Virus record (IMG/VR): IMGVR_UViG_3300003323_000711 | Coordinates: 1-36,642 of that record | Source of the DNA: a virus | Direction: 5' to 3' (one strand) | DNA length: 36,642 bases | In this document: positions 2,949 through 34,023 of the stretch, one piece after another | Position numbering within the stretch: position 1 is the first letter of the stretch | Layout: the number at the start of each line of letters is the position of its first letter | Program-made: the position numbers and the translations under genes | Notes under the pieces: model-generated | Database searches by the model: none | What the model was told of the DNA's origin: nothing | Seen by the model: only the letters and a program-made list of their open reading frames with translations

Positions 2949-3851
2949 TTAACATATTTTATGCATCTTCCCGCCGAAGAGCTTTATATCTTTATAATCC
3001 ATACCTAATGGATCTTCAATCCCCTGATCCCTCCACTGTTTGCGTTGGCGATTAAGCACACCACTCTTTCCGTATATAGAAGACAATACACGGGCTTTAT
3101 CCATATCTGTTTTTGCTTTACGCTTTTCATTCTGTATCGCTACAAATTTATCAGCAGCGTTAGCCCAGTTGACAGACGATTCCCGTTGCCGGGCAACTTC
3201 TCTTTCAGACAGTAACATGTTATAGTCATCTGTCTTTGCATTGTTGGAAGCCGCTACCTGGGCGTTGGCTGCCGCCTGCTGGTTATCTATTCCTATGTTA
3301 GTATTTCGTTCCTGTTGACTGATCTTTGATAGTTCGTTTAGTTGTTGGCCAACATTATACTGTCTTACAGCAGCTGCAGTGTTGGCTGGCAAAGTCCGGT
3401 CAGCGGCTACGTTAGCTGCATTTATCTGTCGGTTTACCTGGTAACGATCATTATCCAGGTTTACCCGTCGGAACACTGGTGGACTATCCATAGTTGGTCT
3501 TGCTGGTACTGGTGGCCGGCGAAATGCGTTGATTATATTGGAAGCAAAAGGAGCAATACCATTTGCCATTTTTCCGACCTTGGCCCAGTTAACACGGCGA
3601 CTACCAGTACCAGGAGAAGCGGTAGAGCTTACTGGTACCCAGGCTTCAGAACTGTCACTACCTGTAAGGTTTATTGCTGGACCGGCTCCTGGAGAAGTAC
3701 TGGACATAACCGGTGCGGTTGCAAAAGGATCATCATACACTACACTATTAGGATTTTCCAATAAGGAATCCCAATTAGTTTTCCTTGGTCCAGGACCACC
3801 AGTAGCATATTTCTTTACCGGTTGCATCTTATTTAGCTTGATTGTTTTCAT
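2949..3851 (-). CDS. Putative cargo/tail protein with Asn/Gln/Ala-rich coiled coil, 300 aa
   Basis: The protein opens with a basic stretch ending in a KKYATGGPG motif; a near-identical YATGGP motif occurs in the neighbouring 628-residue protein. A Ser/Pro/Gly-rich disordered region follows (about 45-90), which contains the dispersed DNA motif read as SPGTG. A long Asn/Gln/Ala-rich helical segment covers about 130-260 and resembles helical cargo proteins of crAss-like phages. It overlaps the upstream gene by 4 bp. There are no catalytic residues to point to. Function is inferred from composition and its place between other internal proteins. Confidence 0.7.
   Translation of the reverse strand: MKTIKLNKMQPVKKYATGGPGPRKTNWDSLLENPNSVVYDDPFATAPVMSSTSPGAGPAINLTGSDSSEAWVPVSSTASPGTGSRRVNWAKVGKMANGIAPFASNIINAFRRPPVPARPTMDSPPVFRRVNLDNDRYQVNRQINAANVAADRTLPANTAAAVRQYNVGQQLNELSKISQQERNTNIGIDNQQAAANAQVAASNNAKTDDYNMLLSEREVARQRESSVNWANAADKFVAIQNEKRKAKTDMDKARVLSSIYGKSGVLNRQRKQWRDQGIEDPLGMDYKDIKLFGGKMHKIC
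3605..3623 (+). repeat. Copy of dispersed motif CAGTACCAGGAGA (19-nt extended match)
   Basis: The 19 bases here, CAGTACCAGGAGAAGCGGT, recur exactly at 26780-26798 in non-coding DNA. Exact 13-bp copies of CAGTACCAGGAGA, either strand, are at 3605, 10256, 13224, 14146, 26780, 26802, 31746 and 32892. Near copies (10-12 bases, one substitution at most) are at 883, 11918, 19578, 22046, 26306, 28498, 28537, 31675 and 33841. Here the motif lies inside the 300-residue gene and is read on the minus strand as Ser-Pro-Gly-Thr-Gly. The function is unknown. Confidence 0.85.
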
Positions 3852-5734
3852 ACAATACCCTGTTCCATTTTATATTGTTCCTGAGCATTAGCCAAACGTT
3901 GTTCCTTTGCTCTAAGTAGTTTTAATGCATTAACTCTATCAGGAGTCTGTGGCTTTTTCTCTATCTTACCAATAGACTTGGCTATCGGACGATGTAGCCG
4001 GGCGAAACCCAACTCTTTTGAGAATACAAAGTCACCAGCAGTTGTCTCACCATCCTCTACTTCAGCATTCATACTGGGAATCTGTATTCCACCTTCTGCA
4101 TGTGAATTGCCTATTAGCTCAGTAGCGTTGGAGTTAATAGGTTTAGCATATCCTCCGGTCATATACTTTTCAGATAACTCCGGATGTTTAAGCCTACCAC
4201 CAGATTCAAACGTATATTTAGCTTTCTTTAACTTGTTGTACTCATTGTAATACTTGTATAGATCGATTAGACCTACACCTTTTGGTTTATTCTTTAATAA
4301 CTGTGGGAATGTTTTAATAGCACTCCAATCAGTTTTTAAGAATCCCTCAATTTGTTCGTCTGTCAGGTTATTGAACTTTTCCTGGGCTCCTTTCAATACA
4401 TCGTCCATAGGAGGTATATTCCTTGGTTGTCCATTAGGGAGTTGTGTATTATCAAATTGACCAATTGTAAGAGAAAGCATTTGTTGCGTACTCTTTGGTA
4501 GCTTCTCATACCCAATTTTTTCTACCGCCTTGTTGAGCCTATCTTCAACAGGACCATATAGATCCTTATATCTTTTATTTGCCAGTGATTTGTCTACAGG
4601 GCGCTGTAACTTACCTCCATCCTGGTAACTGGGTATCCTAGCAAGATGAGGATCTGGCTTTCCCTGTCTTTGATTCCATACCTGCTGTTCAAAATTACTG
4701 GCACCTTCATAATCTAAACCCCAGTACCTATGCTGTGGATCATCGCTAAATTCAGTTACTTCAGGATAACCCTGCCTGGAAGTTAATGATCCTATCCAAC
4801 CATCCACTGGAGACACATCCCTGGTATTAAAGTAGTCCTGAACCAGTGATTTTACTCTTCCTTGCGGCCGTACATTGGGAAGAGAATTAGTATTCTTCAG
4901 CTGCTGAAATTCGTACTGGACGTATGGTACCATGTCTGGTGTTACACTAAAGTCCGGATTTGCTTTTCTGTAGGCATTAAGGTATCCGATACCGGTATCC
5001 TTAGTCCTGTCGTCTAAATCCTTACTACCACCAACCTTTAAATCCCTGTTCAGGTACCTCACAAACTTGTTCCAATCACCCCTCTGTTGCTGAGTTAGTG
5101 GTTTATAACCTTTTGGAATATTCTTCTCTTCATCAATGGGGCCTCCGGTGGCATATCTACCTACAGGTACCATTCTACCGCCATTTCTAAAGTAAGTTGC
5201 ACCTTTGTAACCCTGTACTAGTCCGGGATCCTGCATAATAGCTCTGGAAACAGCCTCATCGTACTTCCTCCTGGCATCGTTTGATTGACGGAACATCTCA
5301 GCTTCCTTACGACGAAGCTTCTTTCCTCTCAGCCAGCCCGATACGCCTCCTACAACCCCTCCCACTACAGCACCTACAGCTGTACCTATACCCGGTACTA
5401 CAGAACCGGCAGCAGCACCAGCGGCTGCACCGCCGAGTGCACCAGTACCAGTAGTAGCAACTGTAGATGGGTTGCCGTAATTGTTAGGGGTGTCGATGGC
5501 ATCGATCAGTCCAGTACCGAGCGCAGCTACACCCCCAACTACTCCAGCGGTATTTCCGGCACCGGCCGTTCCGCCCGCTTTCGGAGACCAGCCGGTATTA
5601 TTAATACCAGGCCGCTTTAGGTTTGTCCATGTAGGTGCTTCTCCTATGATTGCATCATAGGCTGAAGAAGAATCACCACCGTTTACAAACTTCCTTCTAC
5701 CTATCCTGTTTAAGCGCCTGTATACTTGTGTCAT
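3848..5734 (-). CDS. Putative crAss-like cargo/tail protein with glycine-zipper segment, 628 aa
   Basis: A basic N-terminus is followed by a Gly/Ala/Val-rich glycine-zipper stretch at about residues 95-140, able to insert in or cross a membrane. A long hydrophilic middle follows. The C-terminal part (about 540-600) carries an N-S-H-A-E-G-G-I-x-I ... E-V-E-D-G-E-T ... D-F-V-F-S-K-E-L-G pattern that I recognise from virion proteins of crAss-like and other Bacteroidota phages. Short Gly-Gly motifs (YATGGP, YQDGGKL, ESGGRL, YMTGGY) punctuate the sequence. The start at 5734 overlaps the upstream gene by 38 bp; no better-placed start is evident. A lytic domain in the middle cannot be excluded, but I see no catalytic motif. 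A role as an ejected internal protein is inference. Confidence 0.75.
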   Translation of the reverse strand: MTQVYRRLNRIGRRKFVNGGDSSSAYDAIIGEAPTWTNLKRPGINNTGWSPKAGGTAGAGNTAGVVGGVAALGTGLIDAIDTPNNYGNPSTVATTGTGALGGAAAGAAAGSVVPGIGTAVGAVVGGVVGGVSGWLRGKKLRRKEAEMFRQSNDARRKYDEAVSRAIMQDPGLVQGYKGATYFRNGGRMVPVGRYATGGPIDEEKNIPKGYKPLTQQQRGDWNKFVRYLNRDLKVGGSKDLDDRTKDTGIGYLNAYRKANPDFSVTPDMVPYVQYEFQQLKNTNSLPNVRPQGRVKSLVQDYFNTRDVSPVDGWIGSLTSRQGYPEVTEFSDDPQHRYWGLDYEGASNFEQQVWNQRQGKPDPHLARIPSYQDGGKLQRPVDKSLANKRYKDLYGPVEDRLNKAVEKIGYEKLPKSTQQMLSLTIGQFDNTQLPNGQPRNIPPMDDVLKGAQEKFNNLTDEQIEGFLKTDWSAIKTFPQLLKNKPKGVGLIDLYKYYNEYNKLKKAKYTFESGGRLKHPELSEKYMTGGYAKPINSNATELIGNSHAEGGIQIPSMNAEVEDGETTAGDFVFSKELGFARLHRPIAKSIGKIEKKPQTPDRVNALKLLRAKEQRLANAQEQYKMEQGIV

Positions 5735-6461: not shown

Positions 6462-6462
6462 A

Positions 6463-9400
6463 TTAAGTCACATTGTGGACAGTGATGTCCGGTGTTACAG
6501 ATGTTACGTTAAGTATATAACCTGAGTCAGGTTCGCTAAGTTTGAAGTACAGGTCCGTTATTGGCTTCTGGCAATTGTGACAGGTCCAGCCAAATGGTGT
6601 ACCCAGAGTTGGATTCGGGTCTCTCTGGAACATTACTGCCGGTACTGTGTAGGTAGTTACTCCTGCAGGTATATTCACCACATACGGACTTTCGGATGGT
6701 GTAAAGCTGGCAGCTGTTACACCTGGTGGCAGTGGGGTGAATAGCTCATAGCCCACTGCGAACTTTGTACCATTCCAGATCCTGTATATCTGTCCTGCCC
6801 AGATCTCCAGGTTAGCCGGTGTAGGGGAAGCAAAGACAAACTTCAGAGATACGGAGCCTTGTTCTGTACAGTTTACATCGCTGCAGAATTTCTCTACTGT
6901 TGCCGTAATAGCAATAGGCCCCGGGGGATCTGGATCTTCTGTAGGGCAAGCAACCAGGTCTTCTACTGGTTCAATGTAAGGTCCCAGGCCTCCAGTTTCG
7001 GTATTCTCTTCACAGTACCCGTCCAGCTCTCCATTTGTGAGCCTGCATCTGTTATTGAAAGTTTTCATACCAGTATTGGCACCATCACCACCTACCGGTT
7101 CTTCTGTAAGTACCCTTCTGCAAACGTAATTACCAGATCCTCCGGAAGTATCCAGCACCCAACCATCAGGACAGGTAGCAATATCAATTGTCTCTCCGAC
7201 ATAAGTAGAAGTCCGGAACAGGAAAGTAAGATCACTATCCTGTGTGGCGGCTTGGATTTCTTCGGTTGTGTTATCCATGATAGTGATAGCTGCAGCATCA
7301 TTCACTGAGCCATCTCCTATGGCCTGGAAGTTTATGAAGTTAGGGCCTGCTACCAGGTTTACCGGGAAGGCATACCATATAGAGAAGTTACTGGTACCAA
7401 AGCTACTGTCCCTGTCAACTATAGTTACACCGTTCAGGCTTACTTTGAAAGTATTGTCCCCACCTACCCCAACGAATACAGTCTTGGCAGTGGGAGAATC
7501 TATCCTGGTGGTGAATTGTAGTATTTGACCTGCAGTAAGACCATCTTTAAGCCCGTCGCAGTTTGTATCCACCCATACACCCTCCCGGTTCATCGGTGAC
7601 GCGGGACTGCCTGGATCAGGAGTGGCACCGCCCGGTGGATTACCACCATTTACTGTTTCGCCGGAGCCGGCTGGATTCCCTCTCCAGTAGTTTGAGGTGA
7701 GTAGTATCCAGTTAGCATCCGTGAGTGTGGAGTTATAGTTGTCCGTCAGCCATAGCTTGGTACCGTTCTGGCTATACTCAGGTGAGAGGTTTGATTCGGC
7801 TATACAGAAACCGCTGGAGATAATATCTGGTGGCATGGTTTCTTCCTTGTAGCAGTAGGTTCCATCAGGGGACAGTGTATAACCCGGTGAACAGGTTGGT
7901 CCTGTATATACTTCACACTCAGGATCTGTACCTACCCAGGTGATCACGTCCGGGGGCAACGGGCACAGACCGGTATTTACTTCCGGCGGAAAGTACGGTC
8001 CCTGGCCAACGTTTGGACTATTAGGTTCCACGTAACCGTCCAGTGTACCATTGGTACGCCGTGCACGGTTAGCCCAGGCCCTCATACCTGTATTCTTTCC
8101 GTCTACCTGTACACAGAAGGGATCTATTTTGTCCCAGGTGATCACATCCACCGGTGGATCTGGAGGACAATCATACCCGCTTTCTTCCGGATTATTAATT
8201 CCCATGTACTCTACGTACCTGTTCTGGTAGTATACTATATCCCCGATCTCCAGGGAATCCCAAAAGCCGGGGATATCCTGAAAGGTCTTTACTACAGTAC
8301 CAGTAGAAAGTATCCTGTTTTTGGCAGTCAGTAGTATGCGCTTGTATTTCTGATCCCAGCCGATAGTCAGGCCATTGCCCATGAATACATTCTTTTCCTT
8401 CACCTTGAGATACTCTCTAAGAAAGGTATTGATGGTGGCATTCATGGAGTTTAGACTGCCTTTATACAGATACATTTCTCCCAACTGAGCATCCACGAAT
8501 ACATATCCAATCGGTGTACGTATACACGCCAGGTCATGCCTGGTACCGGCATAGCCCAGTTTTGCGCTCATTGCTTCCTGTGGCTCAAACTGGAATATGT
8601 CCCCACTGCCTAGCGTTATAGCCAGTACGTCGCTTTCCAGCTTGGTCTTATCCTGGGTCAGGAACATGGCGTTTTCCATGTGGATGATCAGGCGGTCATC
8701 CATACCTTCCAGGTGACTGATCCGTCCCATGTTCTTCTGCATTTCGTAGAAGTCCAGGGGCTGGAAAGTTCTCCAGGAACGCGGCCGGCCAATCCGTGTA
8801 TTACGGCCGCCACGATGAATCCGGTAGGGGAATACTGTCAGCTCTTCCCGAAAAGGAGAGTATATGATAGAACTGACGAAGTCATTAAGAGAATTCAAAC
8901 TCTTGTCGTATCCAAACTGGTTAGGATCCTGGGAACGATCAAAGGTTATAATGTAGGTGGAGTTATTCTCTGTGTTAAGTGCCACTGGTTCTTTAGGGTA
9001 CCACTTTGAATAGGGATTGCCCGGGATCTCATACCGCAGCGCAACATTAGAAGCACTTTCACAGACAAACCGGCGGATTGCTTTCTTACCGGCAATACCA
9101 TTACCCCAGCCATCGTTGGTTTCGTGCCGGCCATAAGTATGGAAGGTATAATCAACAGCATATGTGTCACCTCCCCAGAAATAGTCTGTAGAAGTCAGAG
9201 CCTGTACACTTCCTGCACTTACTATGGACTGGGAATAGAATGAAGAGTACAGGTTACTTTTGACCGCTACCAGGTTGATCAAATAGGTTTCTTCAAAGGA
9301 CGGGCAACCAATTTCAGCTTCAGTGAAGCTTTGTCCTTTCACACGAATGCCACTGTCTCCGTAACTGATCCCCCAGTCAGTACCGGCAAACTTGCCGGCA

Positions 9401-11379
9401 AAGGTGTTCTCGTGACGGGAGTTTACAAATCCGTTTGTATTTACACCGTTTGGCAGGTAGGTGCTCTCTCGGATCTTACGTAGCGTCTTTCCTGCCCCGA
9501 TCTGTACAGGATTATTACCGATAGTATAGTCTATCAGGAATGCTTCAGGAAGATTGGCATTGTTACCCCCATCTTCCACATATCCCTCCGTGCGCAGGTT
9601 CTCCCGTCGCAGCTTAAACTGGGCACTGATGAAATTGGGTTCTATAGATGGTTTGTTAAACAGTACATCAAAGGCATGGGTACGAAAGGTATCTTCTCGC
9701 AGCTCTACTAACTCAAACCGGTTGTTAAAGCTACTGTCACCCTTATGCCATACAGAAGTTCTCCAATTACCACCGGACGTATAGATAGTAGAACTATCAG
9801 TGGGCAGGTCTTTATCAAAATCGTTCACTACCCCATGTAGCAACAGACTTTGGCCATATACGGTCATGTTCCCTACTGTACGTTTAGCATAGCCTATCTC
9901 ATACCCGTTCAGTACACCCTGGTACTTATCTGGGATACGCACGTTTACCGCACGTATGCCCAGTAAGTCCAGTTTGGTTTTTCCAAAGTCGGTTTCCGAA
10001 GGATAGAGATTCTTTCTTACCCAACGAAGGGATGGCATCTTATGGTGTAGTACTGGCTGACTACGTAGGTTAGGACCACCTAAGCTACTTGCATCAAAGT
10101 CTACTGTATCTGGGTACAGTTCAGTGTCATTCTTCCATACTCCGCAGCGGCCGGTCTTTTGTGCAATATCAAAATAGGTAATTGTGTCTTCCACTTTGTA
10201 GCGTGGAACCGGGTTAGTCTCTCCGCCGGCAGTAGCCTCTGTTGAATCCGTCAAATCTCCTGGTACTGGTGTCGGGCCGGCGATTACAAACCACTTCGTA
10301 AAACCTCCTTTGACTTTACGATACCTTATATAGAAGGCATATACCTCTTCATGCATATGCCCTTTTATCTTCCCGCTTACATGCTCAGCTGGTGGTGCCG
10401 TTGCAGTAATCAAATCACTTTTCCACTCTATCTGTACAGTGAGCGCATAAGGCTGCATATCATTAATATCCGGTTCTGTTTCCAGATCACCTATATACAG
10501 ATAATCGTTCAATTGGCCCATTGTGCCAACCTTACTATAGATAGCTGGCTGAACCAGAATAGACTCAACACTTATATCAGTAGTTAAGTTATCACCGGTG
10601 TAAGTGAAGGTGATTGTATCCCCACTGATGGGAATATAATCCTGTAATTCTACCGCTTTCGTTACACCTTGTATTTTTGATATGATAGCAAGGCGCAGCA
10701 TATCATAGTTGGTGTCTGCGTTTTCAATTGTAATGACCAGGGCTTTGTCTGTCAGGTTGCCGCTATTCCCAGGCCTTACAACAGTCACTGTACTTATGGC
10801 TGAGTAAGCAGTGGAAGTACCGTCATTTCGTTCATAGCCCACAGCTACAAAGTATGCACCGGATTCGAGTGATCCTCCTATTGTTTCTTCTGCAGAGATG
10901 TCCGGTACCTGGAAATCAGGGAATAATCTTAAATCGTCAATAGAGCTAAGGGATGGGTTGTCGCAATTCAGGTACTTGGGCCAACCGAATTCCCCACCTC
11001 TCTTATCTGTAAACACAATGGTCATCTCCCCTTTGTAATTACGCTGGCTCTGACCAGTGATGTACCACTCAGTACTGAACCCTAATTTATCCTCCAGTGC
11101 CCAGGTAGCGTCATCTACAATGGGCTCATAGGTTTCTGTAACAGGGTCAAAGTAGCCTATGGCTGAATTAACGTTATCAGTAGAAAAAAGTACAGGCTTA
11201 CTATCAGTCTCTATAACTCCAATATACCGGTATGGTACTACAACCTGCAATTTCTTAAATCCAGGTTCATTAGATACACTTCCCTGGACATCGAATTGAA
11301 TACCATTCTTACCAAATGGGTAGGTTCCTTGTGGCTGTTCTTCAGGCCTGGTATCAATATGCAGTTTGGTTACTTTCAT
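6463..11379 (-). CDS. Tail muzzle / tail stabilisation protein, crAss-like, 1,638 aa
   Basis: This is the largest gene in the window and lies directly after a ring-protein gene, where crAss-like phages encode the muzzle that closes the tail tube. The N-terminal pattern (P-x-G-T-Y-P-F-G-x-N-G near residue 20, then N-E-P-G-F, then Y-R-Y-I-G-V-I) fits that family. Residues to about 1050 are beta-rich. The C-terminal third is modular: a unit N-T-G-M-x(4)N-R-x-R-x-T-N-G-x-L-D-G-Y-x-E occurs at about 1090 and again at about 1435; Cys-rich C-P-D-G-W/S-P-G-Y units lie at about 1155 and 1405; and a PA14-like or lectin-like beta domain (about 1265-1375, with V-F-V-G-V-G-G-D-N-T-F-K-V) lies between. These modules probably face the host surface. 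The gene overlaps its upstream neighbour by 4 bp. Confidence 0.85.
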   Translation of the reverse strand: MKVTKLHIDTRPEEQPQGTYPFGKNGIQFDVQGSVSNEPGFKKLQVVVPYRYIGVIETDSKPVLFSTDNVNSAIGYFDPVTETYEPIVDDATWALEDKLGFSTEWYITGQSQRNYKGEMTIVFTDKRGGEFGWPKYLNCDNPSLSSIDDLRLFPDFQVPDISAEETIGGSLESGAYFVAVGYERNDGTSTAYSAISTVTVVRPGNSGNLTDKALVITIENADTNYDMLRLAIISKIQGVTKAVELQDYIPISGDTITFTYTGDNLTTDISVESILVQPAIYSKVGTMGQLNDYLYIGDLETEPDINDMQPYALTVQIEWKSDLITATAPPAEHVSGKIKGHMHEEVYAFYIRYRKVKGGFTKWFVIAGPTPVPGDLTDSTEATAGGETNPVPRYKVEDTITYFDIAQKTGRCGVWKNDTELYPDTVDFDASSLGGPNLRSQPVLHHKMPSLRWVRKNLYPSETDFGKTKLDLLGIRAVNVRIPDKYQGVLNGYEIGYAKRTVGNMTVYGQSLLLHGVVNDFDKDLPTDSSTIYTSGGNWRTSVWHKGDSSFNNRFELVELREDTFRTHAFDVLFNKPSIEPNFISAQFKLRRENLRTEGYVEDGGNNANLPEAFLIDYTIGNNPVQIGAGKTLRKIRESTYLPNGVNTNGFVNSRHENTFAGKFAGTDWGISYGDSGIRVKGQSFTEAEIGCPSFEETYLINLVAVKSNLYSSFYSQSIVSAGSVQALTSTDYFWGGDTYAVDYTFHTYGRHETNDGWGNGIAGKKAIRRFVCESASNVALRYEIPGNPYSKWYPKEPVALNTENNSTYIITFDRSQDPNQFGYDKSLNSLNDFVSSIIYSPFREELTVFPYRIHRGGRNTRIGRPRSWRTFQPLDFYEMQKNMGRISHLEGMDDRLIIHMENAMFLTQDKTKLESDVLAITLGSGDIFQFEPQEAMSAKLGYAGTRHDLACIRTPIGYVFVDAQLGEMYLYKGSLNSMNATINTFLREYLKVKEKNVFMGNGLTIGWDQKYKRILLTAKNRILSTGTVVKTFQDIPGFWDSLEIGDIVYYQNRYVEYMGINNPEESGYDCPPDPPVDVITWDKIDPFCVQVDGKNTGMRAWANRARRTNGTLDGYVEPNSPNVGQGPYFPPEVNTGLCPLPPDVITWVGTDPECEVYTGPTCSPGYTLSPDGTYCYKEETMPPDIISSGFCIAESNLSPEYSQNGTKLWLTDNYNSTLTDANWILLTSNYWRGNPAGSGETVNGGNPPGGATPDPGSPASPMNREGVWVDTNCDGLKDGLTAGQILQFTTRIDSPTAKTVFVGVGGDNTFKVSLNGVTIVDRDSSFGTSNFSIWYAFPVNLVAGPNFINFQAIGDGSVNDAAAITIMDNTTEEIQAATQDSDLTFLFRTSTYVGETIDIATCPDGWVLDTSGGSGNYVCRRVLTEEPVGGDGANTGMKTFNNRCRLTNGELDGYCEENTETGGLGPYIEPVEDLVACPTEDPDPPGPIAITATVEKFCSDVNCTEQGSVSLKFVFASPTPANLEIWAGQIYRIWNGTKFAVGYELFTPLPPGVTAASFTPSESPYVVNIPAGVTTYTVPAVMFQRDPNPTLGTPFGWTCHNCQKPITDLYFKLSEPDSGYILNVTSVTPDITVHNVT

Positions 11380-12218
11380 ATAAATCCTGTAATGTCGCCG
11401 TAAAATTGTTCGGGTTCATGGGTTGTGTAGAAGCTTTCGAAATAGTTAGCGGGGGGTATAAACCGGGTGTGTGCATTTACCTTCATTTCCATCTGATCCA
11501 CAGATGGGTAAGTTATCTGTCCGATAGCCCTGGCTGCATGTAGGTCAAACTTACGATCACAATAATCAAAGGAGAATACCGGGTCTTCCCAGCCTGCGCC
11601 GATCATACATCCTCTGCAGTACCAGTATATCGCTTCCTTATAGTTTTCGTTATCTGGTATCAATGGAAGCCCGTTATCATCCAGCGGTATTGTACTATAG
11701 TGTACCCTTACACAACCATCTGCAAAAGAGGTTTGTATATAACCACCTATACTGGTACTGTACCACTGTTCACAGGCCGGTAGGCAGTTATACTGGTCTA
11801 CAGAGATACAGTAAGGCAATTTGATAGCTGTACTATCGTAGATTAAGCCACCCTCATCTGGTACCTCTCTGGCATAGGGTATAGTTAGAAATGGAGTAAC
11901 ACCGGGTAGTTTTGCACCAGTACCAGGAAGAGTGCGCTGCTTAGGGGCGTTGAAGGTACGGGTACCGGTATTGTACTTCAGTCGGTGGCCGTTCCATTCA
12001 ACACCTTGTATAGTGATTAGCCCACAAGGTAACTTACCAACATGGAAGTTAATGTCTACATCTTGCCAGGCTGGCTGCAGGCTAACTTTTGTTTGCATCA
12101 GACCCATGGCCTCCGGGATCCATTCCTCCATATCAACAAGGAAGCCGGTATCCTGTACCCTGGTTTTGCGTACTATACGGCCCACCACCTCACTTATGCT
12201 GGTACTGGTGTGTATCAT
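11376..12218 (-). CDS. crAss-like tail ring protein, 280 aa
   Basis: The motif I-P-L-D-D-N-G-L-P-L-I-P-D-N-E-N-Y-x-E-A-I-Y-W-Y (about residues 185-210) matches the I-P-T-D-x-x-G-x-P-L-I-P-D signature I associate with ring proteins of crAss-like tails. The N-terminus contains a helical segment (about 25-45) and the centre is beta-rich with several cysteines. It lies immediately upstream of the muzzle gene, where ring protein genes are found in phicrAss001. Overlaps of 1 bp upstream and 4 bp downstream show a translationally coupled block. Identification rests on this motif and gene order. Confidence 0.75.
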   Translation of the reverse strand: MIHTSTSISEVVGRIVRKTRVQDTGFLVDMEEWIPEAMGLMQTKVSLQPAWQDVDINFHVGKLPCGLITIQGVEWNGHRLKYNTGTRTFNAPKQRTLPGTGAKLPGVTPFLTIPYAREVPDEGGLIYDSTAIKLPYCISVDQYNCLPACEQWYSTSIGGYIQTSFADGCVRVHYSTIPLDDNGLPLIPDNENYKEAIYWYCRGCMIGAGWEDPVFSFDYCDRKFDLHAARAIGQITYPSVDQMEMKVNAHTRFIPPANYFESFYTTHEPEQFYGDITGFI

Positions 12219-12901: not shown

Positions 12902-13575
12902 GCCTCTTGCTTGTTTTTAGGTGATGCCAGATTGACTTCAATCTCCTGCCCGTTTGGAACATTGATACGGTTGTAATCCACTGTCAGCATATACTGGGTG
13001 ATCATTTGTGCCAAATCCCCTGTTACAGGGTATGGATCATTCCACCAGTCGCAGCCGTGGCCGGCATACTTGCAATTCAATTGCATTACTTCTGTAGGAC
13101 GGTCAAATACTCCATCCACCCGTATCATAGGCAGTTTTCTATTCTGCCTTACCTCTATGTAACCATTAGTATATTCATAGAAATAACTGTTTCTGGAATA
13201 CTTACCAGAAGAGAGACTTTCTACAGTACCAGGAGATGATAGACGAAACGGGTTGAGCCCGTCAATACTGCCTACATAATCAAAAGTGATGCTTCCACTT
13301 CTGAGTGGTGTAGGTATGACATACTTGGATCTGGCTACATTACACAATGGAATAGAAACATTACATGCCACTGCAGCTGCTTCTTCCATGGGTACAAATA
13401 ACGTCTGCCGGTATATGGCCCGTTGACTGGGGTGCTTTTCCAAAGATCTGCCAAGTAAAGTTGATCTCCAGTTATCCACTACCTCGCCTAACATTCGCTT
13501 GAACGGCTCATCGAATTCCCGGTCAAGATGACTGGCGATGATGGTCGTTATACTGTTCAGAGAAGGCTGTTGCAT
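12898..13575 (-). CDS. Putative ring/neck protein, 225 aa
   Basis: This is the first gene after the strong terminator at 13603-13634, so it probably heads a separate tail transcript. Residues 1-60 are helical; the middle and C-terminus are beta-rich with a C-x(6)-C-D-W-W cluster around residue 170. Its position between the decoration-like protein and further ring proteins matches the tail-ring gene cluster of crAss-like phages. The sequence TTATCCACATG places a perfect DnaA-box-like word across the start codon, which may be chance. A TATCTTTA word 20-30 bp upstream resembles the Bacteroidota -7 box (7 of 8). Confidence 0.65.
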   Translation of the reverse strand: MQQPSLNSITTIIASHLDREFDEPFKRMLGEVVDNWRSTLLGRSLEKHPSQRAIYRQTLFVPMEEAAAVACNVSIPLCNVARSKYVIPTPLRSGSITFDYVGSIDGLNPFRLSSPGTVESLSSGKYSRNSYFYEYTNGYIEVRQNRKLPMIRVDGVFDRPTEVMQLNCKYAGHGCDWWNDPYPVTGDLAQMITQYMLTVDYNRINVPNGQEIEVNLASPKNKQEA

Positions 13576-13660: not shown

Positions 13661-14935
13661 TTATAACCCAATAATAGAGGCACGGCTGGCAGTTGGCAAG
13701 GCAATGATTGTGTATAGTGGTTGTGCGTAATTTCGTGTAGCTCCCTGTTCGGTCCTGGTACTCTTTATAATCACGTAACCGTATTGGATAGCAGCGTCCA
13801 CGTTGGTGGCTGGCTCACCGAATTCGGCAGGTGTAGTACCTTCCTGGGTGTACAGCGTAAGTCCCTGCTGAACCTTGAAGTAGTTTTCAAAGTCCTTCAC
13901 ATCGGCGTAAGTACCGATAGGTGCGATAGCCTTCTGAGTATGCGTCAGCACAATAGCACTGGCGTCGGCTGTCTGGCTCGGGGAGGTTTCAATATAAGCA
14001 CTGATCTTCAGTGTACGTGTAGAATCAGTACCAGTAACAGTAAGTGTGGTACCGGAACCTGACGCAGAGAAGATCTTGTCCAGGGTCTCGGCATTAATGT
14101 CTGCAGCCAGGGCAGTTACTGCTGCTGTTACGTTAGTTGTAACGGTCTCCTGGTACTGCCAGGAGGGATAAGGTAATGTCGTCGAGCTGGTGTCGATGAT
14201 CATTACATGCAGTATCTGGGTCACAGCTATTGTCCCACCAAAGGCGGCAGTCCAAACATCCCCCTGGCCGGCAGTATAGGCAATCGACTTTTTATCGGTA
14301 GCGGGAACAGGTACTGGAATTGGCGTAGTGATCTTGACAATTCCGTCAGCTTGCTTCCAGGCAAAGAAATACTTGCGGCCTACGTTGACTGGTAAAGTGG
14401 TAGAACCAAAGGCAACAGCGCCTTTAGTATCTTCCCAGTAAGCTGCCAGCGCACCTGCTGCGGCGTTGTCAACAAAGTCTTCCAGGGTAGTCTGGAATCC
14501 TACTACTGGGTTAACACCACCGGCAAAATTAGCCGTTACAATGGAGGAGAAGGTATTGCCGGTTTCTGAACCTGTAACAGTAACCCCGTTAAAGGACGTG
14601 CCAACAGGGCCGGTTAGCGTAAAGGTAGCGGAGGTGGTACCGGATGAAGCGGCTGTAAAACCTTGTGTATTGGCGTCTAGCATAGCCTCAATAGCAGCCA
14701 CGGCCAAGGCAGCAGTACTTTCCGCTGCAGTTACAGTAAAGGTATAAATGTAGCCTCCAATATTGAAAGTAATACTATCTCCAACTGTAGGAGATGCGGC
14801 AATTGTAACAGTATTCACTGAGGTGGCCGCTGTGCCGGCAGACGGACTATTACTAGTATCTACAGACTTTGCTATGATAATTTCAGCAGGCTTACCAATG
14901 GTGCCTTTGAAGAATCTATTTCTGATCCTGGTCAT
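13661..14935 (-). CDS. Putative capsid decoration / head-fibre-like protein, 424 aa
   Basis: The sequence is very rich in Thr, Ala, Ser and Val and low in charge. Two related beta modules can be seen: one at about 45-140 (V-G-D-S-I-T-F-N-I-G-G-Y-I-Y-T-F-T-V-T, then A-A-I-E-A-M-L, then a T-G-P/T-G-S region), and a second at about 225-320 (Y-Q-E-T-V-T-T-N, A-L-A-A-D-I-N-A, G-S-G-T-T-L-T-V-T-G-T). This strand-helix-strand pattern is widespread in phage decoration, tube and sheath subunits. Position after the capsid genes and before the terminator favours an outer capsid (auxiliary) protein. A tail-tube role is the alternative, less likely because crAss-like phages have short tails. Confidence 0.6.
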   Translation of the reverse strand: MTRIRNRFFKGTIGKPAEIIIAKSVDTSNSPSAGTAATSVNTVTIAASPTVGDSITFNIGGYIYTFTVTAAESTAALAVAAIEAMLDANTQGFTAASSGTTSATFTLTGPVGTSFNGVTVTGSETGNTFSSIVTANFAGGVNPVVGFQTTLEDFVDNAAAGALAAYWEDTKGAVAFGSTTLPVNVGRKYFFAWKQADGIVKITTPIPVPVPATDKKSIAYTAGQGDVWTAAFGGTIAVTQILHVMIIDTSSTTLPYPSWQYQETVTTNVTAAVTALAADINAETLDKIFSASGSGTTLTVTGTDSTRTLKISAYIETSPSQTADASAIVLTHTQKAIAPIGTYADVKDFENYFKVQQGLTLYTQEGTTPAEFGEPATNVDAAIQYGYVIIKSTRTEQGATRNYAQPLYTIIALPTASRASIIGL

Positions 14936-14953: not shown

Positions 14954-16000
14954 TTATAGAACTACTCTGGTATTGTTGTCGTTTTCAGCTAACTGTTGTC
15001 CCGGTACATTTTCAAGCCGGCCCTTCAGGTACTCAACAGCTAGATCGCATATTTGCTGGTGAAAACTCTCAGGCAGTTCGCTATCTGTTCCCAAACTTAG
15101 ACTAATGGGAAGTGCTTTCCTAATATAGGTAATACCAACCTTGTTTACTGTGAAGCTACTGTCGTAATATACGTATAGGGTATTACCTTTTAATTCACTG
15201 ATCGGAGAATAGTGAGAGGTTTTATAGAATTGAGTTGTGTTAACGGTTGGAATTTTATTTGATGGCAATAGCCGATTTTCTACATAGACACCCTGGTTCG
15301 TATGCCGTTGCAATGACCAGGTATACTTCTCGCTTACTGAAGTAGTAGTACCATCAACTGTTAATTCTGGATTAACGGTAGTACCACCGGGAACAACAAT
15401 GAGATAATGTTTAGGTTTAAACACATCATCAAGTTGTTCCCAGTAATAGCTGCCGATTGAGGTTATCCAGGGTATGATAAAGGATATGTCTTCTTTTCTT
15501 TTATAACCAGTATAGGTGTTACCATAAGGTAGATCATCTGGTATAGTTACTGTTTTCTCACCAAGGTTTACGGCTATCGTTTCGTAAAAAGGAGAAGTTC
15601 CCTTATCGGACGTAGTTTGCCTTAGTGTGTATACGTCTAAGCTTACAGCTTCCACCTTAGCTTCAACACCTGTACAAAGGGCTGTAGAATAGGACCAGTT
15701 GGTAAGCAGGTAGTTATAATCAGATGGCAGGAAACATTTATATCGGCTCTTACTGGGATCGATATATGGCACCAGCTCACTACCGGTAACGATAAGGTTT
15801 CTCAGTACATCTGTTCCTAACTGGTCTATTTCAAATCCGCCACTACCGTCTTTTTTGGGACGAATGCAACTCTGAATAAACCTGTTCTGCATCTTGTTGA
15901 GTACCCAGTCCTTTTCCTCAGGCTGGTATTTCCTGGTTCTGTGGGCCGCAACCTGCTGCAGGCTCTGGTCTAGTTCAATATGCATTTCCCGGACGGTCAT
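14954..16000 (-). CDS. Putative head-tail connector/ring protein, 348 aa
   Basis: The N-terminal signature (I-E-L-D-Q-S-L-Q ... P-E-E-K-D-W-V-L-N-K-M-Q-N-R-F-I, residues 8-42) is one I recognise from neck or ring proteins in crAss-like and related Bacteroidota phages. An F-L-P-S-D-Y-N-Y-L-L segment near residue 90 fits the same family. The C-terminus is beta-rich. It overlaps the preceding gene as ATGA and is followed 18 bp later by the decoration-like gene, so it is within the head/neck part of the operon. The exact ring is not assigned. Confidence 0.65.
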   Translation of the reverse strand: MTVREMHIELDQSLQQVAAHRTRKYQPEEKDWVLNKMQNRFIQSCIRPKKDGSGGFEIDQLGTDVLRNLIVTGSELVPYIDPSKSRYKCFLPSDYNYLLTNWSYSTALCTGVEAKVEAVSLDVYTLRQTTSDKGTSPFYETIAVNLGEKTVTIPDDLPYGNTYTGYKRKEDISFIIPWITSIGSYYWEQLDDVFKPKHYLIVVPGGTTVNPELTVDGTTTSVSEKYTWSLQRHTNQGVYVENRLLPSNKIPTVNTTQFYKTSHYSPISELKGNTLYVYYDSSFTVNKVGITYIRKALPISLSLGTDSELPESFHQQICDLAVEYLKGRLENVPGQQLAENDNNTRVVL

Positions 16001-24385: not shown

Positions 24386-25096
24386 TTATTTTTTGTGGAT
24401 CAATTTCATTAAATCTTCCATGGACCTGCCATTAGAATCAGGGCCACCGGCACCAATTTCGGTAGCCTTCTTATTCTGGGCAATGTTAACAGAACCAGCA
24501 GCAATGTCCGCCTCACTCCAGCTGGATACTTTATCTTCGTTTTCACCTTTTACTGCAGTACCACGGATACCGGTACCGCCTTCCTTCATCTCTTCCTCTA
24601 CCCTACGAGCGAAGCTCTTGATACTGGCGTACATCTTATCCAGCTTATCGACGGTAGAGGCTATCTTATCAGGAGAGTGCCGTAGCTCTCCTGCCCTGGT
24701 AGTTTCTTTAAAGTCAATGTTCTCCAGATACAGATCCATCTGGTCCTGCATTTTTAGCAGTGCACGGTAGGTACGAAGAGACCTGGCAGCCTTCATGGCT
24801 AGTTCTTCGTACTTCTTAGAAGCAATTTCTACCACAGAGTCTATCTCTTGTAAGCCAGCGTAGTAAAGCGCTTCTTTATGCCGTTCTGTTTCCTCCCAAT
24901 CCCGGATAGGAGAGTTGAAATCGTTGAAGAAGTAGATGTAAGAGAACTCGCGGCGGGTCTGGCGTTTTAATTTGCCACTGGAATCACCTTTAGAACCTTT
25001 ATCCCGACGGTAAATAGCTTCAAACTCCGGGATCAGCATGATCCAGGGTTTATTCAGTTTAACTTCCATGTTCTCATCTATCTCAAACAGTCTCAT
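24386..25096 (-). CDS. Candidate small terminase or packaging-associated protein, 236 aa
   Basis: The N-terminal part (L-N-K-P-W-I-M-L-I-P-E-F-E-A-I-Y-R-R-D, then S-Y-I-Y-F-F-N-D-F-N-S-P-I, residues 15-62) is a pattern I have seen upstream of TerL in crAss-like phages. A long helical region (90-165) could oligomerise, and the C-terminus is disordered. I see no convincing helix-turn-helix. Its place directly upstream of terL and its coupling with the HU/IHF gene (14-bp overlap) make TerS the best guess, but unproven. The 57-bp gap before terL shows no strong hairpin. Confidence 0.6.
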   Translation of the reverse strand: MRLFEIDENMEVKLNKPWIMLIPEFEAIYRRDKGSKGDSSGKLKRQTRREFSYIYFFNDFNSPIRDWEETERHKEALYYAGLQEIDSVVEIASKKYEELAMKAARSLRTYRALLKMQDQMDLYLENIDFKETTRAGELRHSPDKIASTVDKLDKMYASIKSFARRVEEEMKEGGTGIRGTAVKGENEDKVSSWSEADIAAGSVNIAQNKKATEIGAGGPDSNGRSMEDLMKLIHKK

Positions 25097-25424
25097 TTCC
25101 TTTGTCTTTTAATTCCTCCAACCGGTAATCCAACAGTTGCATCCCGTTCAAGGCCCGGTAGATCATGTCTTTACCATTACGTTTGTTCATCTTAACCTTA
25201 TTCATACGGTTCAGTTTTGCAGCTTTAGGCTTAAACTTACCGAAGTAAGGCAACATCACTCCTTCCATAGTACCTTTCCTGATCACGTCGTAGATATAAT
25301 TACCTACAAAGTCAATGACATGTTTGGCTTCTCCTTTCGTGATCTTGTTCATGCGTGCTGTCTCTTCAAGGAGGTGGTCATTAGCCAATGGGATATCCTT
25401 GATAGAGGTTTTTAACCCAGCCAT
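25083..25424 (-). CDS. HU/IHF-family DNA-bending protein, 113 aa
   Basis: The core R-K-G-T-M-E-G-V-M-L-P-Y-F-G-K-F-K-P-K (residues 49-67) matches the strand-turn-strand of HU/IHF proteins, where V-x-I-P-x-F-G-K-F is diagnostic. Preceding helices (18-48) and a basic arm-like segment (68-90, rich in Lys, Arg and Asn) fit the fold. The length is slightly above the usual 90-100 residues. Crassvirales genomes typically carry IHF-like genes near the packaging genes, as here. It may compact or bend DNA during packaging or regulate transcription. It overlaps both neighbours by 13-14 bp. Confidence 0.85.
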   Translation of the reverse strand: MAGLKTSIKDIPLANDHLLEETARMNKITKGEAKHVIDFVGNYIYDVIRKGTMEGVMLPYFGKFKPKAAKLNRMNKVKMNKRNGKDMIYRALNGMQLLDYRLEELKDKGNETV

Positions 25425-26662: not shown

Positions 26663-26678
26663 TACTTGCGAGATAAAG

Positions 26679-26779: not shown

Positions 26780-26814
26780 CAGTACCAGGAGAAGCGGTCT
26801 ATCTCCTGGTACTG
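26780..26814. repeat. Inverted pair of the dispersed motif forming a 13-bp stem-loop
   Basis: CAGTACCAGGAGA (26780-26792) and its exact complement TCTCCTGGTACTG (26802-26814) enclose a 9-base loop. The left arm and loop start match 3605-3623 for 19 bases. On the minus strand the hairpin is followed by a gap and then CTTTTTTATT, so it may also act as a terminator in that direction, although the T run is about 13 bases away. Confidence 0.8.
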
Positions 26815-28495: not shown

Positions 28496-28549
28496 ATCAG
28501 AACCAGGAAGGGCCAGCGCTGTAACGCTCACTCTTCTCCTGGTTCTGAT
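28496..28549 (+). other. Long hairpin containing an inverted pair of the dispersed motif
   Basis: ATCAGAACCAGGA (28496-28508) and TCCTGGTTCTGAT (28537-28549) form a perfect 13-bp stem. The loop holds a small AGCG/CGCT inner stem. It begins 5 bp after the stop of the 200-residue gene. There is no U tract, so it may protect the 3' end or separate mRNAs rather than terminate. The arms are the A-variant of the dispersed motif (CAGAACCAGGA). Confidence 0.65.
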
Positions 28550-28927: not shown

Positions 28928-29386
28928 ATGTCAAAAAATAAGCCTTTCCCAATACCTGCAGACTATCCATTTAAGGCCGATATTGAACAGTACCAGGCAA
29001 GCTTAAAAACCAGTTACGACAGCGTATCCGTTAAACGGACCACGATTACCGAGGAGATCACATACACTCGTAACCCTAACGGGTTATACGCTAAGCTGTT
29101 CCAGAACAAGAAGCTCCTGGATCTCTCGGCGTCCGCGTGCCTGGTAGTCGTGTACATCTGTTGCCACCTAAAGCACCAGCAGACTATGATACAGATACCA
29201 CTCAAGGACATCGGCCTCAGTAAGGTAACTTTCTATAAAGCGCTACTGGAGCTCACTCACATTAACGTAATTCGGAAAGTACCAGGGAAGAAGGAGATGT
29301 ACTGGATCAACGTAACTATGGTTGCCAACGGAGATACCAGGGAGACTGAGACTAAGCTACTAAATGGAGCGAGAGACAGTGAGTGA
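28928..29386 (+). CDS. Winged-helix DNA-binding protein, RepL-like, 152 aa
   Basis: I start the gene at ATG 28928 (M-S-K-N-K-P-F-P-I-P). The open frame extends to 28895 but would run through the operator. Residues about 60-130 fit a winged-helix replication or regulatory domain: Y-A-K-L-F-Q-N, L-S-A-S-A-C-L-V-V-V-Y-I-C-C-H-L, I-Q-I-P-L-K-D-I-G-L-S-K-V-T-F-Y-K-A-L-L-E-L (helix-turn-helix), then N-V-I-R-K-V-P-G-K-K-E-M-Y-W-I-N-V (wing). The order resembles plasmid RepL initiators and similar genes on Bacteroidota mobile elements. With repeated AGGGATA sites upstream and DnaA-box-like sites nearby, replication control is possible; a plain repressor is the alternative. A GC-rich hairpin overlaps the stop. 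Confidence 0.75.
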   Translation: MSKNKPFPIPADYPFKADIEQYQASLKTSYDSVSVKRTTITEEITYTRNPNGLYAKLFQNKKLLDLSASACLVVVYICCHLKHQQTMIQIPLKDIGLSKVTFYKALLELTHINVIRKVPGKKEMYWINVTMVANGDTRETETKLLNGARDSE

Positions 29387-29387: not shown

Positions 29388-29662
29388 GGCCGCGAGCGGC
29401 CCGCACATCCCCCACCTCCTATTCCCCTTCTCAGCTCCTTTCTCTATTCCCTTTTCTATTCCACTTACACAATCTTACTGAGCTTTATACCTTCAGCTCC
29501 GTTACCACTTACCGCTCCATTACATAACACTTCAGTAGTACAAATCCACCTTATACAATACTACTTGTCCACAGTTTACAGCAAACCGTATCGCTGTATT
29601 TCATTTTCTATTTATCTTAGAAATCCGTAACCAGTAACTCAAACCTTAAATCTATACAGCTT
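29388..29662 (+). other. Non-coding stretch: GC hairpin, pyrimidine tract, DnaA-like repeat
   Basis: GGCCGC/GCGGCC (29388-29393, 29396-29401) forms a tight hairpin just after the winged-helix stop. From about 29404 to 29465 the plus strand is almost purine-free (C/T-rich), and strong strand bias continues to about 29540. The inverted DnaA-box-like repeat lies at 29561-29577. A frame of 88 codons covers this stretch, but its Pro/Ser/Leu/Tyr composition only reflects the C/T bias, so I do not call it. Confidence 0.55.
29561..29577 (-). promoter_or_regulatory. Repeat with DnaA-box-like core (copy 3, inverted)
   Basis: CTACTTGTCCACAGTTT matches the complement of copy 1 in 16 of 17 bases and holds TTGTCCACA. 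It follows the pyrimidine tract and faces copies 1 and 2 across 2.5 kb. Confidence 0.55.
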
Positions 29663-30249: not shown

Positions 30250-30463
30250 AGGTAATTGTGGCCAGGACGTACACATACAGTACCAGCAAAGGCTTACAGC
30301 TGTACGCCGGGCGGGTTACGAGATACGTAAACCTAGTAAACCTGGCAATCCCTGGTCATTCCGCAATGGAGATGGTAGCCATAGTGCTACCGGCTTCAAT
30401 TCAGAGCTAGATGCTCTGATCTACATAGAGAAAGAAATTGAGAGTAAGAAAGCTTTAAACTAA
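30227..30463 (+). CDS. Small basic hypothetical protein, 78 aa
   Basis: I do not recognise the family. The sequence is basic in its first half (R-L-T-A-V-R-R-A-G-Y-E-I-R-K-P-S-K-P-G-N-P-W-S-F-R-N-G-D-G) and ends in an acidic helix (S-E-L-D-A-L-I-Y-I-E-K-E-I-E-S-K). The strand-turn-strand start with conserved-looking Gly and Trp residues, then a C-terminal helix, suggests a small folded protein. It is coupled to the upstream gene by a 23-bp overlap and is followed 4 bp later by the next gene. Confidence 0.6.
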   Translation: MAIQRTLKGNCGQDVHIQYQQRLTAVRRAGYEIRKPSKPGNPWSFRNGDGSHSATGFNSELDALIYIEKEIESKKALN

Positions 30464-31204: not shown

Positions 31205-31214
31205 ACTCACTACA

Positions 31215-32042
31215 ATGCAACCACAAACCGTTTATATACTAGAATACGCTGCTTCTGTACATACAGTCTTTTCAATACTGCCTACTAAAGAAGTAATAGA
31301 GGTAGTACTTCAACTTCCTATATCGGATCAGGCTTATACTGAGTTAATCTCAGAAGGTTCAACAGCTGTATTACCTCCTGATACCAGCTTAGGTGTAAGA
31401 ACCAGGCTATATGGGATGAAGGTAATACAAGTACAACAACTAGTTGTTAGGACTCCTGACTCCAAATGGGCATTATATGAACAAGAAGGAGACACGGAAC
31501 GTACAATCAAGTACTTTGATTTTAAACCGGGTACGCTTAGAGTCATGAAGGCTATTGGTTTACAGGAACCTCAACCATATAGTAGCTTCCAAAAAGCAGA
31601 TGCTATTATTAAAGGTGCCACCTCAGTATTCGATAACAAAGGATATTGGCTAACGGAACTTTCAAAGCAGAAGCCAGAACCAGGAGATGAAAGGGCTTAC
31701 CAGGGAGATCTCGGTCAGGCTGATAGTCTTACAAGCGAGAATGCTTCTCCTGGTACTGAACCTCTCCAGCCTGGCGTTGGTGGATCCAGTTTCACTGCGC
31801 AGTTCAGTTCAGTAGAACCGAATTCCAGAACTCCGTGGCAGGAATGTGCATATAAGCATCTGGTTGACGCTTGGACTTATATGCACATGTTACACAAACC
31901 TGGCTATGTATATAAAGCTCAAGCTCATATCTCTGCTGCTAAAGAAGCGATGCATAATCGCTGGACACTCTATGCTGTTGTAATAAGTAACAATGAAATT
32001 AATCGTTACGACGAAGAGTGGCATGAATCTATATGCAAGTAA
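31215..32042 (+). CDS. Two-domain fusion of families A and B, 275 aa
   Basis: The N-terminal 80 residues (V-Y-I-L-E-Y ... V-V-L-Q-L-P-I-S-D-Q ... Y-T-E-L-I-S-E) resemble the family A paralogues at 29663 and 29938. The C-terminal 65 resemble the 91-residue family B protein just upstream. In between lies a domain of about 70 residues (80-150) and a Gly/Pro/Ser/Glu-rich linker (about 155-205). That linker is encoded between two inverted copies of the dispersed motif (31675-31687, 31746-31758), the second read as S-P-G-T-E. The fusion implies that A and B proteins act together. The biochemical role is unknown. Confidence 0.65.
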   Translation: MQPQTVYILEYAASVHTVFSILPTKEVIEVVLQLPISDQAYTELISEGSTAVLPPDTSLGVRTRLYGMKVIQVQQLVVRTPDSKWALYEQEGDTERTIKYFDFKPGTLRVMKAIGLQEPQPYSSFQKADAIIKGATSVFDNKGYWLTELSKQKPEPGDERAYQGDLGQADSLTSENASPGTEPLQPGVGGSSFTAQFSSVEPNSRTPWQECAYKHLVDAWTYMHMLHKPGYVYKAQAHISAAKEAMHNRWTLYAVVISNNEINRYDEEWHESICK

Positions 32043-32044
32043 CT

Positions 32045-32240: not shown

Positions 32241-32933
32241 ATGGAAAAGAAAACAGTTACATTACAATGGGACGCTGAAAGTATACCGGGACATATTATG
32301 GTAGCGATCCCTAATGATATAGTGAAGGAGATGATACTCATTATTGCTGAACGCATGCGTCAGATACAGATTGAAGGTTTCAGTACTGATAACGACGACA
32401 AATATGAAGAAGGTATACTTTCATCGGCCGGTATCTTTTATTTAATGGAATCAAAAGACCTTACGCTGAATGACAATGGAACACCATACTATTGGCCATT
32501 GCCAAATGAATTGTGGAAGCCTACTCCAAATGATCGCATCCGGGAGCTGCAAAAAGGATTGGCGCTTGGTGCAGCTGAATTGGGCCGGCTGATCCGGCTG
32601 AAACAAGAAGTCTCATCTACTAGTATTGATGGCGAACCAATAGCTAAAGAAGAGCCAAGGTTCCCCGAGCGAAAGCAGTTAGATGAGGCTGGCTTCGTAT
32701 TCAGAGGAACTGATAATAAGATATATCTGTGCAGAATGCGTACAGATACGCCATGGTTCTTTTACTGGCACCCTGATGGTGCGTGGGTTAGTTTAAAAGC
32801 TGTTACCCAAATAGATGTTTGGGGAGCCTATGAGCAACGTCTCTCAGATGAAGAAGCATTACTCTACCAGCTAAAAAATCCTGGATACAAATCTCCTGGT
32901 ACTGAAGATAACCAGGTCAAAGAAACAGATTAG
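32241..32933 (+). CDS. Phage protein with E-R-x-R-Q-I-x-x-E-G domain, 230 aa
   Basis: Residues 30-120 match a domain common in phage early regions: A-E-R-M-R-Q-I-Q-I-E-G-F-S-T-D-N-D-D-K-Y-E-E-G-I-L, then P-Y-Y-W-P-L-P, then W-K-P-T-P-N-D-R-I-R-E-L-Q-K-G-L-A-L-G-A-A-E-L-G-R-L. I know no proven activity for it. The C-terminal half (150-215) looks like a separate small beta domain with many aromatics (W-F-F-Y-W-H-P-D-G-A-W-V-S-L). The tail encodes the dispersed motif as K-S-P-G-T-E-D (32892-32904). It converges with, and overlaps by 17 bp, the minus-strand gene. Confidence 0.75.
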   Translation: MEKKTVTLQWDAESIPGHIMVAIPNDIVKEMILIIAERMRQIQIEGFSTDNDDKYEEGILSSAGIFYLMESKDLTLNDNGTPYYWPLPNELWKPTPNDRIRELQKGLALGAAELGRLIRLKQEVSSTSIDGEPIAKEEPRFPERKQLDEAGFVFRGTDNKIYLCRMRTDTPWFFYWHPDGAWVSLKAVTQIDVWGAYEQRLSDEEALLYQLKNPGYKSPGTEDNQVKETD

Positions 32934-33168: not shown

Positions 33169-33173
33169 TTATT

Positions 33174-33181: not shown

Positions 33182-33195
33182 GTAAAATAATTGAG

Positions 33196-33408: not shown

Positions 33409-33412
33409 CACC

Positions 33413-33685
33413 ATGGTATACATTGACAACTTTAATGCGCCGTTCCGTAATATGGTTATGTGCCATATGATCGCTGATACTACAGAAGAACTGTTGGAAA
33501 TGGTAGACAAAATAGGCGTTAAGCGTAAGTGGATACAACATCCAGGTACTATTCATGAACACTTTGATATTTGTTTAAGTAAGAAAGCCGAGGCCCTAAG
33601 ACACGGCGCCAAAGAAATTACCTGGCGGGAGATGGGTACCATGATCAACCAGCGATTACAAACCCTTAAAACACCAAAAACATGA
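33413..33685 (+). CDS. DUF4031 domain protein, 90 aa
   Basis: The pattern V-Y-I-D-N-F-N-A-P-F-R-N-M-V-M-C-H-M-I-A-D-T-T-E-E-L ... I-G-V-K-R-K-W ... H-F-D-I-C-L-S-K-K-A-E-A-L-R-H-G-A-K-E-I-T-W-R-E is that of the DUF4031 family, small proteins frequent in phages and in bacteria. The conserved Asp, His and Cys residues suggest a catalytic or metal site, but the activity is unknown to me. I choose ATG 33413, which gives the usual M-x-V-Y start; an in-frame ATG at 33401 would overlap the previous gene by 8 bp. The stop overlaps the next start as ATGA. Confidence 0.85.
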   Translation: MVYIDNFNAPFRNMVMCHMIADTTEELLEMVDKIGVKRKWIQHPGTIHEHFDICLSKKAEALRHGAKEITWREMGTMINQRLQTLKTPKT

Positions 33686-34023
33686 GAACATTTTTCAAAT
33701 CCTTCGATATAGAAGAAAAAAGAGCTCACAGAATACTAGCCGAGCTCATCGTAGACATACAAGCAACTTGCATGTGCCAAAAATGTGGCATACATCCTTT
33801 AGAAGATCCAGCCGTAGAATTGGTACTTACCAATGAACGCCAGTACCAGGATAATGAACATCGGTTTACAATCTATGCACTGGCCCACCTGCTGCTGGAT
33901 TCTACTATATGGGAAGCTATTTACAAGTATGTCCCGTTCGATTTGGGTAAAGAGTTTGCTATAAAGCGAATCGAAGATCTGTTTGATTCCCTTTATAAAG
34001 AACGCATATCTCTCTTACAATAA
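33682..34023 (+). CDS. Hypothetical protein with CMCxxC motif, 113 aa
   Basis: A basic helical N-terminus precedes A-T-C-M-C-Q-K-C-G-I-H-P at about residues 30-41, a three-cysteine cluster that might bind metal with another ligand or be a half zinc finger. Residues 60-110 are helical and aromatic (F-T-I-Y-A-L-A-H-L-L-L-D). Near copy 33841-33851 of the dispersed motif is read here as R-Q-Y-Q-D. It is coupled to DUF4031 by ATGA, so the two may act together. The family is not recognised. Confidence 0.65.
   Translation: MRTFFKSFDIEEKRAHRILAELIVDIQATCMCQKCGIHPLEDPAVELVLTNERQYQDNEHRFTIYALAHLLLDSTIWEAIYKYVPFDLGKEFAIKRIEDLFDSLYKERISLLQ

Follow-up and report, generated by a model that had tools for sequence, protein, structure and literature searches.

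Known Chi sites are words of 5-8 bases that are asymmetric, dispersed, mostly intragenic and lineage-specific, and DNA uptake sequences occur as hairpins where they form inverted pairs. The uptake sequences of Neisseria and Pasteurellaceae are short dispersed words, found within genes and in both orientations (PMC2346458). The stoperators of cluster A mycobacteriophages, which are repressor sites of L5 and Bxb1, are 13-base asymmetric sites in tens of copies, mainly intergenic and one-directional relative to transcription, and their consensus drifts between related phages (PMC3029335). In phage SPbeta, a conserved 15-base element, SPBRE, is repeated in promoter and intergenic regions and is bound by the phage protein MrpR (PMC10516654). 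In this study, we analysed a dispersed 13-base motif, CAGTACCAGGAGA, in a virus fragment of 36,642 bases (IMG/VR record IMGVR_UViG_3300003323_000711; hereafter the window); all window counts refer to this fragment, and most of the phage genome lies outside it. The motif fits none of these four systems and, by analogy, would work most like a dispersed protein-binding array. On balance, we favor the reading that its broader unit, CAG(T/A)ACCAGGAGA, marks dispersed double-stranded DNA sites for a sequence-specific, most likely phage-encoded DNA-binding protein acting genome-wide. A literature search found no description of the motif, with most subscription papers outside the search.

All eight exact copies reported by a first-pass annotation were recovered at the same coordinates and on the same strands (dinucleotide shuffles expect 0), and the 19-base identity between 3605-3623 and 26780-26798 was confirmed. 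The near copies it listed are present, but some are offset by 1-2 bases (26305, 22044) and some carry more than two mismatches (883, 28498). Furthermore, it had overlooked copies at 3503(-), 5443, 8295, 11617, 11752(-), 12199(-), 14026, 17575, 20712(-), 28988 and 30278. We found 24 sites within two mismatches of the 13-mer in the window, compared to 1.1 expected.

The true unit is broader than the 13-mer: CAG(T/A)ACCAG, in most cases continued by GGA(GA), has 29 copies in the window (17 plus, 12 minus), comprising the CAGTACCAG copies and those of its A variant, CAGAACCAG. CAGTACCAG is the most over-represented word, with 23 copies on both strands, where dinucleotides predict 0.36 and trinucleotides 1.4; it is usually extended by GGA, often GAGA. 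The top ten-base word of the window reaches 15 copies; when all the compared phages were cut into 36.6-kb pieces, any other ten-base word reached at most 7. Coding DNA holds 25 sites in 32.4 kb and non-coding DNA 4 in ~4.2 kb, a similar density, and the sites are spaced somewhat more evenly than random placement gives, the largest gap being 2.9 kb (P ~0.01). Unconstrained expectation-maximization motif finding was discarded because it drifted into codon periodicity.

To determine the contribution of the coding sequence, we compared these counts with synonymous-codon shuffles. CAGTACCAG occurs 21 times in coding DNA, far above the 2.3 +/- 1.4 of synonymous shuffles (max 7, n=500) and the 3.5 +/- 1.7 of shuffles also keeping neighbouring bases (max 10, n=400). 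The 13-mer occurs 6 times, compared to 0.24 (max 3) in the neighbour-preserving shuffles. The copies do not trace to one duplicated protein linker, as they encode the peptides QYQ, STS, PVP, PGT/TGT and WYW. The coding copies show no orientation preference relative to transcription (12 sense, 13 antisense). Neither codon usage nor codon neighbours nor protein sequence accounts for the excess. The occurrence in all frames, on both strands and in coding and non-coding DNA, with the excess over the codon null, supports the earlier proposal that selection or spread acts at the DNA or RNA level.

A second raised word is also dispersed in the window, the near-palindrome ATACCGGTA, with 11 copies. 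Its coding copies number 10, compared to 1.4-1.8 in shuffles, with single shuffles reaching 8-9.

The phage belongs to Crassvirales (crAss-like viruses of Bacteroidota), as indicated by structural proteins in conserved order. Specifically, the genes for the muzzle, ring proteins 1 and 2, major head protein, portal and large terminase occupy ~0.7-26.6 kb on the minus strand, and a divergent non-coding stretch (~26.6-27.9 kb) separates this block from small plus-strand genes. The window proteins match Pfam crAss_MUZ (7e-28), CrAss_Ring_1 (7e-29) and CrAss_Ring_2 (2e-13) and the PHROG major head protein, portal and terminase (each 1e-73 or better), and the best TerL matches are Crassvirales. A TerL search for prophage or host contigs found none.

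Related phages carry their own versions of the word. The closest relative, G022 (L059, 9.9 kb; identity 92% in the capsid, 83% in the portal), shares CAGTACCAG, and beyond it nearby relatives carry the dispersed variant CAGTACCGG(A). L095 (capsid 72% identical) has CAGTACCG(GA), with 15 copies in 14.5 kb, many frames being used; for CAGTACCG the count is 14, compared to 0.8 expected. The variant of G003 (56.8 kb; terminase 66% identical) is GAAGTACCGG(W)AGAAG(S)G, whose register, AGTACC.G..GAAG.G, is that of the longest window copies (3605, 26780) and of one G022 copy (1667); AAGTACCG occurs there 16 times, compared to 1.5 expected. G011 (95.6 kb) contains AGGGTACC/GGTACC words, with AGGGTACC found 27 times where 1.8 are expected. 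In these five phages (window, G022, L095, G003, G011), the core AGTACC stands at 1.75-2.64 times its codon-shuffle expectation, and at 0.73-1.66 times in 15 other tested phages, including crAss001, ProJPt-Bp1 and lambda. Core enrichment is concentrated in one group of related crAss-like phages, each having its own AGTACC variant, and the enriched phages cluster in two trees with moderate support. The presence of a word of this sort in every crAss-like lineage was not upheld, since G006, G017, G020, crAss001, ProJPt and lambda show background-level excess. A 17-base pattern was found at ten loci in viral contigs, of which L059 alone is also core-rich.

The same set of genomes gave observations of another kind. 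In G432 (a 97-kb contig of L110), the strong word is an AT-rich element of 25 bases, TGAGCCTTCTAAAATAATAGAGG, present 23 times over both strands; it differs in kind from the window motif. In G429 (a 94-kb contig of L098), CCACTGA words are strongly over-represented (the 7-mer has 86 copies) and CCACTGAC occurs 32 times, compared to 3.7 in codon shuffles, possibly a dispersed word of yet another kind. G011 (94404-94946) and G003 (31240-31779) encode dCTP deaminase-like proteins that are 55% identical; none was found in G008 or G015.

We next compared the window with G022 site by site, at 73% identity over 9.9 kb. Six of the 12 AGTACCAG copies of the window are intact in G022, compared to 10.6% for any 8-mer (p = 7e-4), and 6 of 10 are retained in the reverse direction (p = 2e-4), both tests resting on a small number of sites. 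Retention is about five times chance, and the flanks of the sites are no better conserved than average (~66% identity). Copies are lost and gained by substitutions, often synonymous; for example, at 14838 the window reads TCT GCC GGC ACA and G022 reads TCG GCT GGT ACT. The sites are maintained and turned over by point substitution. Between lineages, site positions are mostly unshared, with a few codons in common (ring protein 2 column 118, portal column 508, capsid column 352).

The exact copies outside the inverted pair at 26780-26814 (see below) are:
3605..3617, plus strand: CAGTACCAGGAGA, antisense in the gene at 2949-3851(-); its match with 26780 reaches 19 bases (to 3623)
10256..10268, minus strand: sense in the muzzle-protein gene at 6463-11379(-), peptide PVPG
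13224..13236, plus strand: antisense in the ring-protein-2 gene (SPGT); G022 and G003 both keep the core GGTACT at this aligned codon
14146..14158, minus strand: sense in the gene at 13661-14935(-) (QYQE); absent from G022 through point substitutions
31746..31758, minus strand: antisense in the open reading frame (ORF) at 31215-32042(+)
32892..32904, minus strand: antisense, close to the 3' end of the ORF at 32241-32933(+)

Other core copies, and one near copy, are:
883..891, plus strand: core copy CAGAACCAG
3503..3511, minus strand: core copy CAGTACCAG
5443..5451, plus strand: core copy CAGTACCAG
8295..8303, plus strand: core copy CAGTACCAG
11617..11625, plus strand: core copy CAGTACCAG, ring-protein-1 gene
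11752..11760, minus strand: core copy CAGTACCAG, ring-protein-1 gene
11918..11926, plus strand: core copy, retained in G022 despite differing flanks
12199..12207, minus strand: core copy, conserved in G022
14026..14034, plus strand: core copy, conserved in G022
15933..15941, minus strand: core copy CAGAACCAG
17575..17583, plus strand: core copy, major capsid gene, lost in G022
19578..19586, plus strand: core copy, in a 15-base island retained in G022 amid poor alignment
20712..20720, minus strand: core copy, portal gene; CAG TAC CAG is the synonymous CAA TAT CAA (CAATATCAA) in G022
22048..22056, minus strand: core copy, portal gene
24490..24498, plus strand: core copy CAGAACCAG
28988..28996, plus strand: core copy, within the ORF of a replication-initiator-like protein with a winged helix-turn-helix (wHTH)
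30278..30286, plus strand: core copy CAGTACCAG
31675..31687, plus strand: near copy CAGAACCAGGAGA
33841..33849, plus strand: core copy CAGTACCAG

We also examined bacterial genomes. The 13-mer was found in 37 of 395 sampled Bacteroidota genomes, with one copy in each and never more. As a repeated word it is absent from these genomes and hence no common motif of hosts, although a signal specific to the phage's own host may exist. Uptake sequences, which are likewise intragenic and in both orientations, differ in this respect, since they enrich bacterial genomes. A search of GTDB genomes for the two-copy inverted pattern found, among the matches listed, scattered unrelated phyla and no enriched host.

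Among the roles offered by the first-pass annotation, a regulator, segregation or recombination site on double-stranded DNA remains. We propose that a predicted phage protein would read the dispersed sites along the whole genome. Its binding would serve, for example, phage-genome compaction or segregation, or the control of recombination or replication, and site and reader would have co-diverged from one phage lineage to another. DNA-binding proteins are indeed encoded in the window, and three of them are candidate readers:
25083..25424, minus strand: DNA-binding, HU-like protein that is conserved across the family (Pfam PF00216, E 2.9e-4, just below the cut-off)
28928..29386, plus strand: replication-initiator-like protein with wHTH topology (weak profile matches, homologues only)
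35640..36347, plus strand: OmpR-family response-regulator-like protein, full-length (best solved relative PrrA, E 5e-13)

The structure models of the HU-like and wHTH proteins have low confidence (mean predicted local distance difference test scores of 62 and 61), and fold searches with them gave no match below E 0.001. The OmpR-like protein has no relative in IMG/VR contigs and no homologue in the relatives examined. A parS partition site is palindromic and is paired with a ParB-type protein; the 13-mer is not a perfect palindrome, and no ParB match was found among the scanned window proteins, with most of the genome outside the window.

Several observations weigh against this proposal. No candidate in the window is tied to the motif as its binding protein: the HU-like protein occurs also in phages without the motif, and the OmpR-like protein is missing from motif-bearing relatives. 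The record is partial, and the distribution was seen over the 36,642-base fragment alone; the even spacing is not found in L095, G003 or G011. L097/G428, which both trees place within the enriched group, has a weak core enrichment (1.38 times). G430 reaches 1.66 times and some controls 1.2-1.4 times, indicating that the enrichment boundary is graded.

Two other features of the window were noted. DnaA-box-like repeats (CTGTGGACAACTAG, CTGTGTATAACTAG and a copy in reverse) lie at 26646-26664, ~27036 and 29559-29577, in or near the divergent non-coding region and close to the replication-initiator-like wHTH gene; this would be a possible origin. There are also two tRNA-like genes, at 35235-35334(+) and 35383-35457(+); the latter has an 8-base anticodon loop and a called four-base anticodon (ggtt), and would suit a frameshift-reading tRNA.

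The alternative that survives best, though we judge it unlikely, is a recombination hotspot resembling Chi. The asymmetric word would modulate a helicase-nuclease, with the effect that phage DNA ends are protected or recombined. The enzyme could be host AddAB/RecBCD or a phage exonuclease, a RecD/Dda-like helicase or a Sak4-like annealing protein. Like Chi, the motif is asymmetric, dispersed, mostly intragenic, present on both strands and lineage-specific. An exonuclease-family gene lies in the window (25412-26200), and genes for a Sak4-like protein and for an exonuclease-V-like helicase occur in relatives. However, 13 bases exceed the known length of Chi, and a host Chi should be enriched in the host, whereas the sampled Bacteroidota genomes show no such enrichment of the 13-mer.

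A repressor-silencing array like the stoperators or SPBRE is improbable. The motif resembles stoperators in its 13-base length, asymmetry, copy number (8 exact and 29 core copies here) and a consensus that varies between related phages. Helix-turn-helix-type proteins are encoded in the window; a stoperator system would be expected to have a cognate repressor of this type that confers immunity. But stoperators are mainly intergenic and point one way, whereas 25 of the 29 core copies are intragenic and face both ways about equally. SPBRE is similarly repeated in one phage genome, but it lies in promoter and intergenic regions and the motif mostly in coding DNA.

We assign a similarly small chance to the absence of any function, with the motif a by-product of some bias, in codon context or in mutation, that is particular to these genomes. 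The shorter words CTGGTA, CCAGTA and AGTACC are raised too, and other phages have unexplained, weaker word excesses. However, a bias of short context would not be expected to give the extension to 11-13 bases, the occurrence in every frame and the retention at homologous sites above the flanks.

An RNA-level signal spread in transcripts (a terminator, a processing stem or a site for an RNA-binding protein) is more doubtful still. Two inverted pairs in intergenic DNA give strong hairpins that fold far better than shuffles:
26780-26792 (plus) and 26802-26814 (minus): two exact copies, 13-base arms with a 9-base spacer, a perfect hairpin (z ~-4.4)
28498..28547: A variant (CAGAACCAGGA ... TCCTGGTTCTG), right 3' of the stop codon of the gene at 27888-28490 (z ~-5)

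In the second pair, the A/T change is present in both arms, indicating that pairing is preserved. These two pairs may be terminators, but this role leaves many single intragenic copies unexplained. Most copies are unpaired and intragenic, the inverted pair 31675/31750 folds no better than shuffles, and the even orientation relative to transcription argues against an RNA signal. An RNA stem for mRNA processing, as suggested previously, is thus unlikely as a general explanation. The hairpin pattern was searched in viral contigs and none was found.

The tiny mobile palindrome of the first-pass annotation was rejected, because homologous sites in G022 show no insertion footprint and no inserted or excised element, and differ by point substitutions in aligned codons.

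Returning to the predicted phage-encoded DNA-binding protein, the copies scattered through the genes on both strands and the altered word versions in relatives suggest that it reads the word as a genome-wide address tag. A bolder version, which we regard as tentative and rather unlikely, is that the phage group keeps a genome-wide self-address code, in which one protein and an intragenic site with a lineage-specific dialect would serve to recognise, compact, segregate or recombine the phage's own DNA. Crassvirales rank with the most abundant viruses of the gut, and their persistence and genome management are poorly understood. Since the word differs among several lineages, comparison could reveal the pair of site and reader, through a DNA-binding protein whose recognition residues covary with the word. 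A dispersed, intragenic and fast-diverging recognition site would indicate a novel genome-wide DNA-binding system in Crassvirales.

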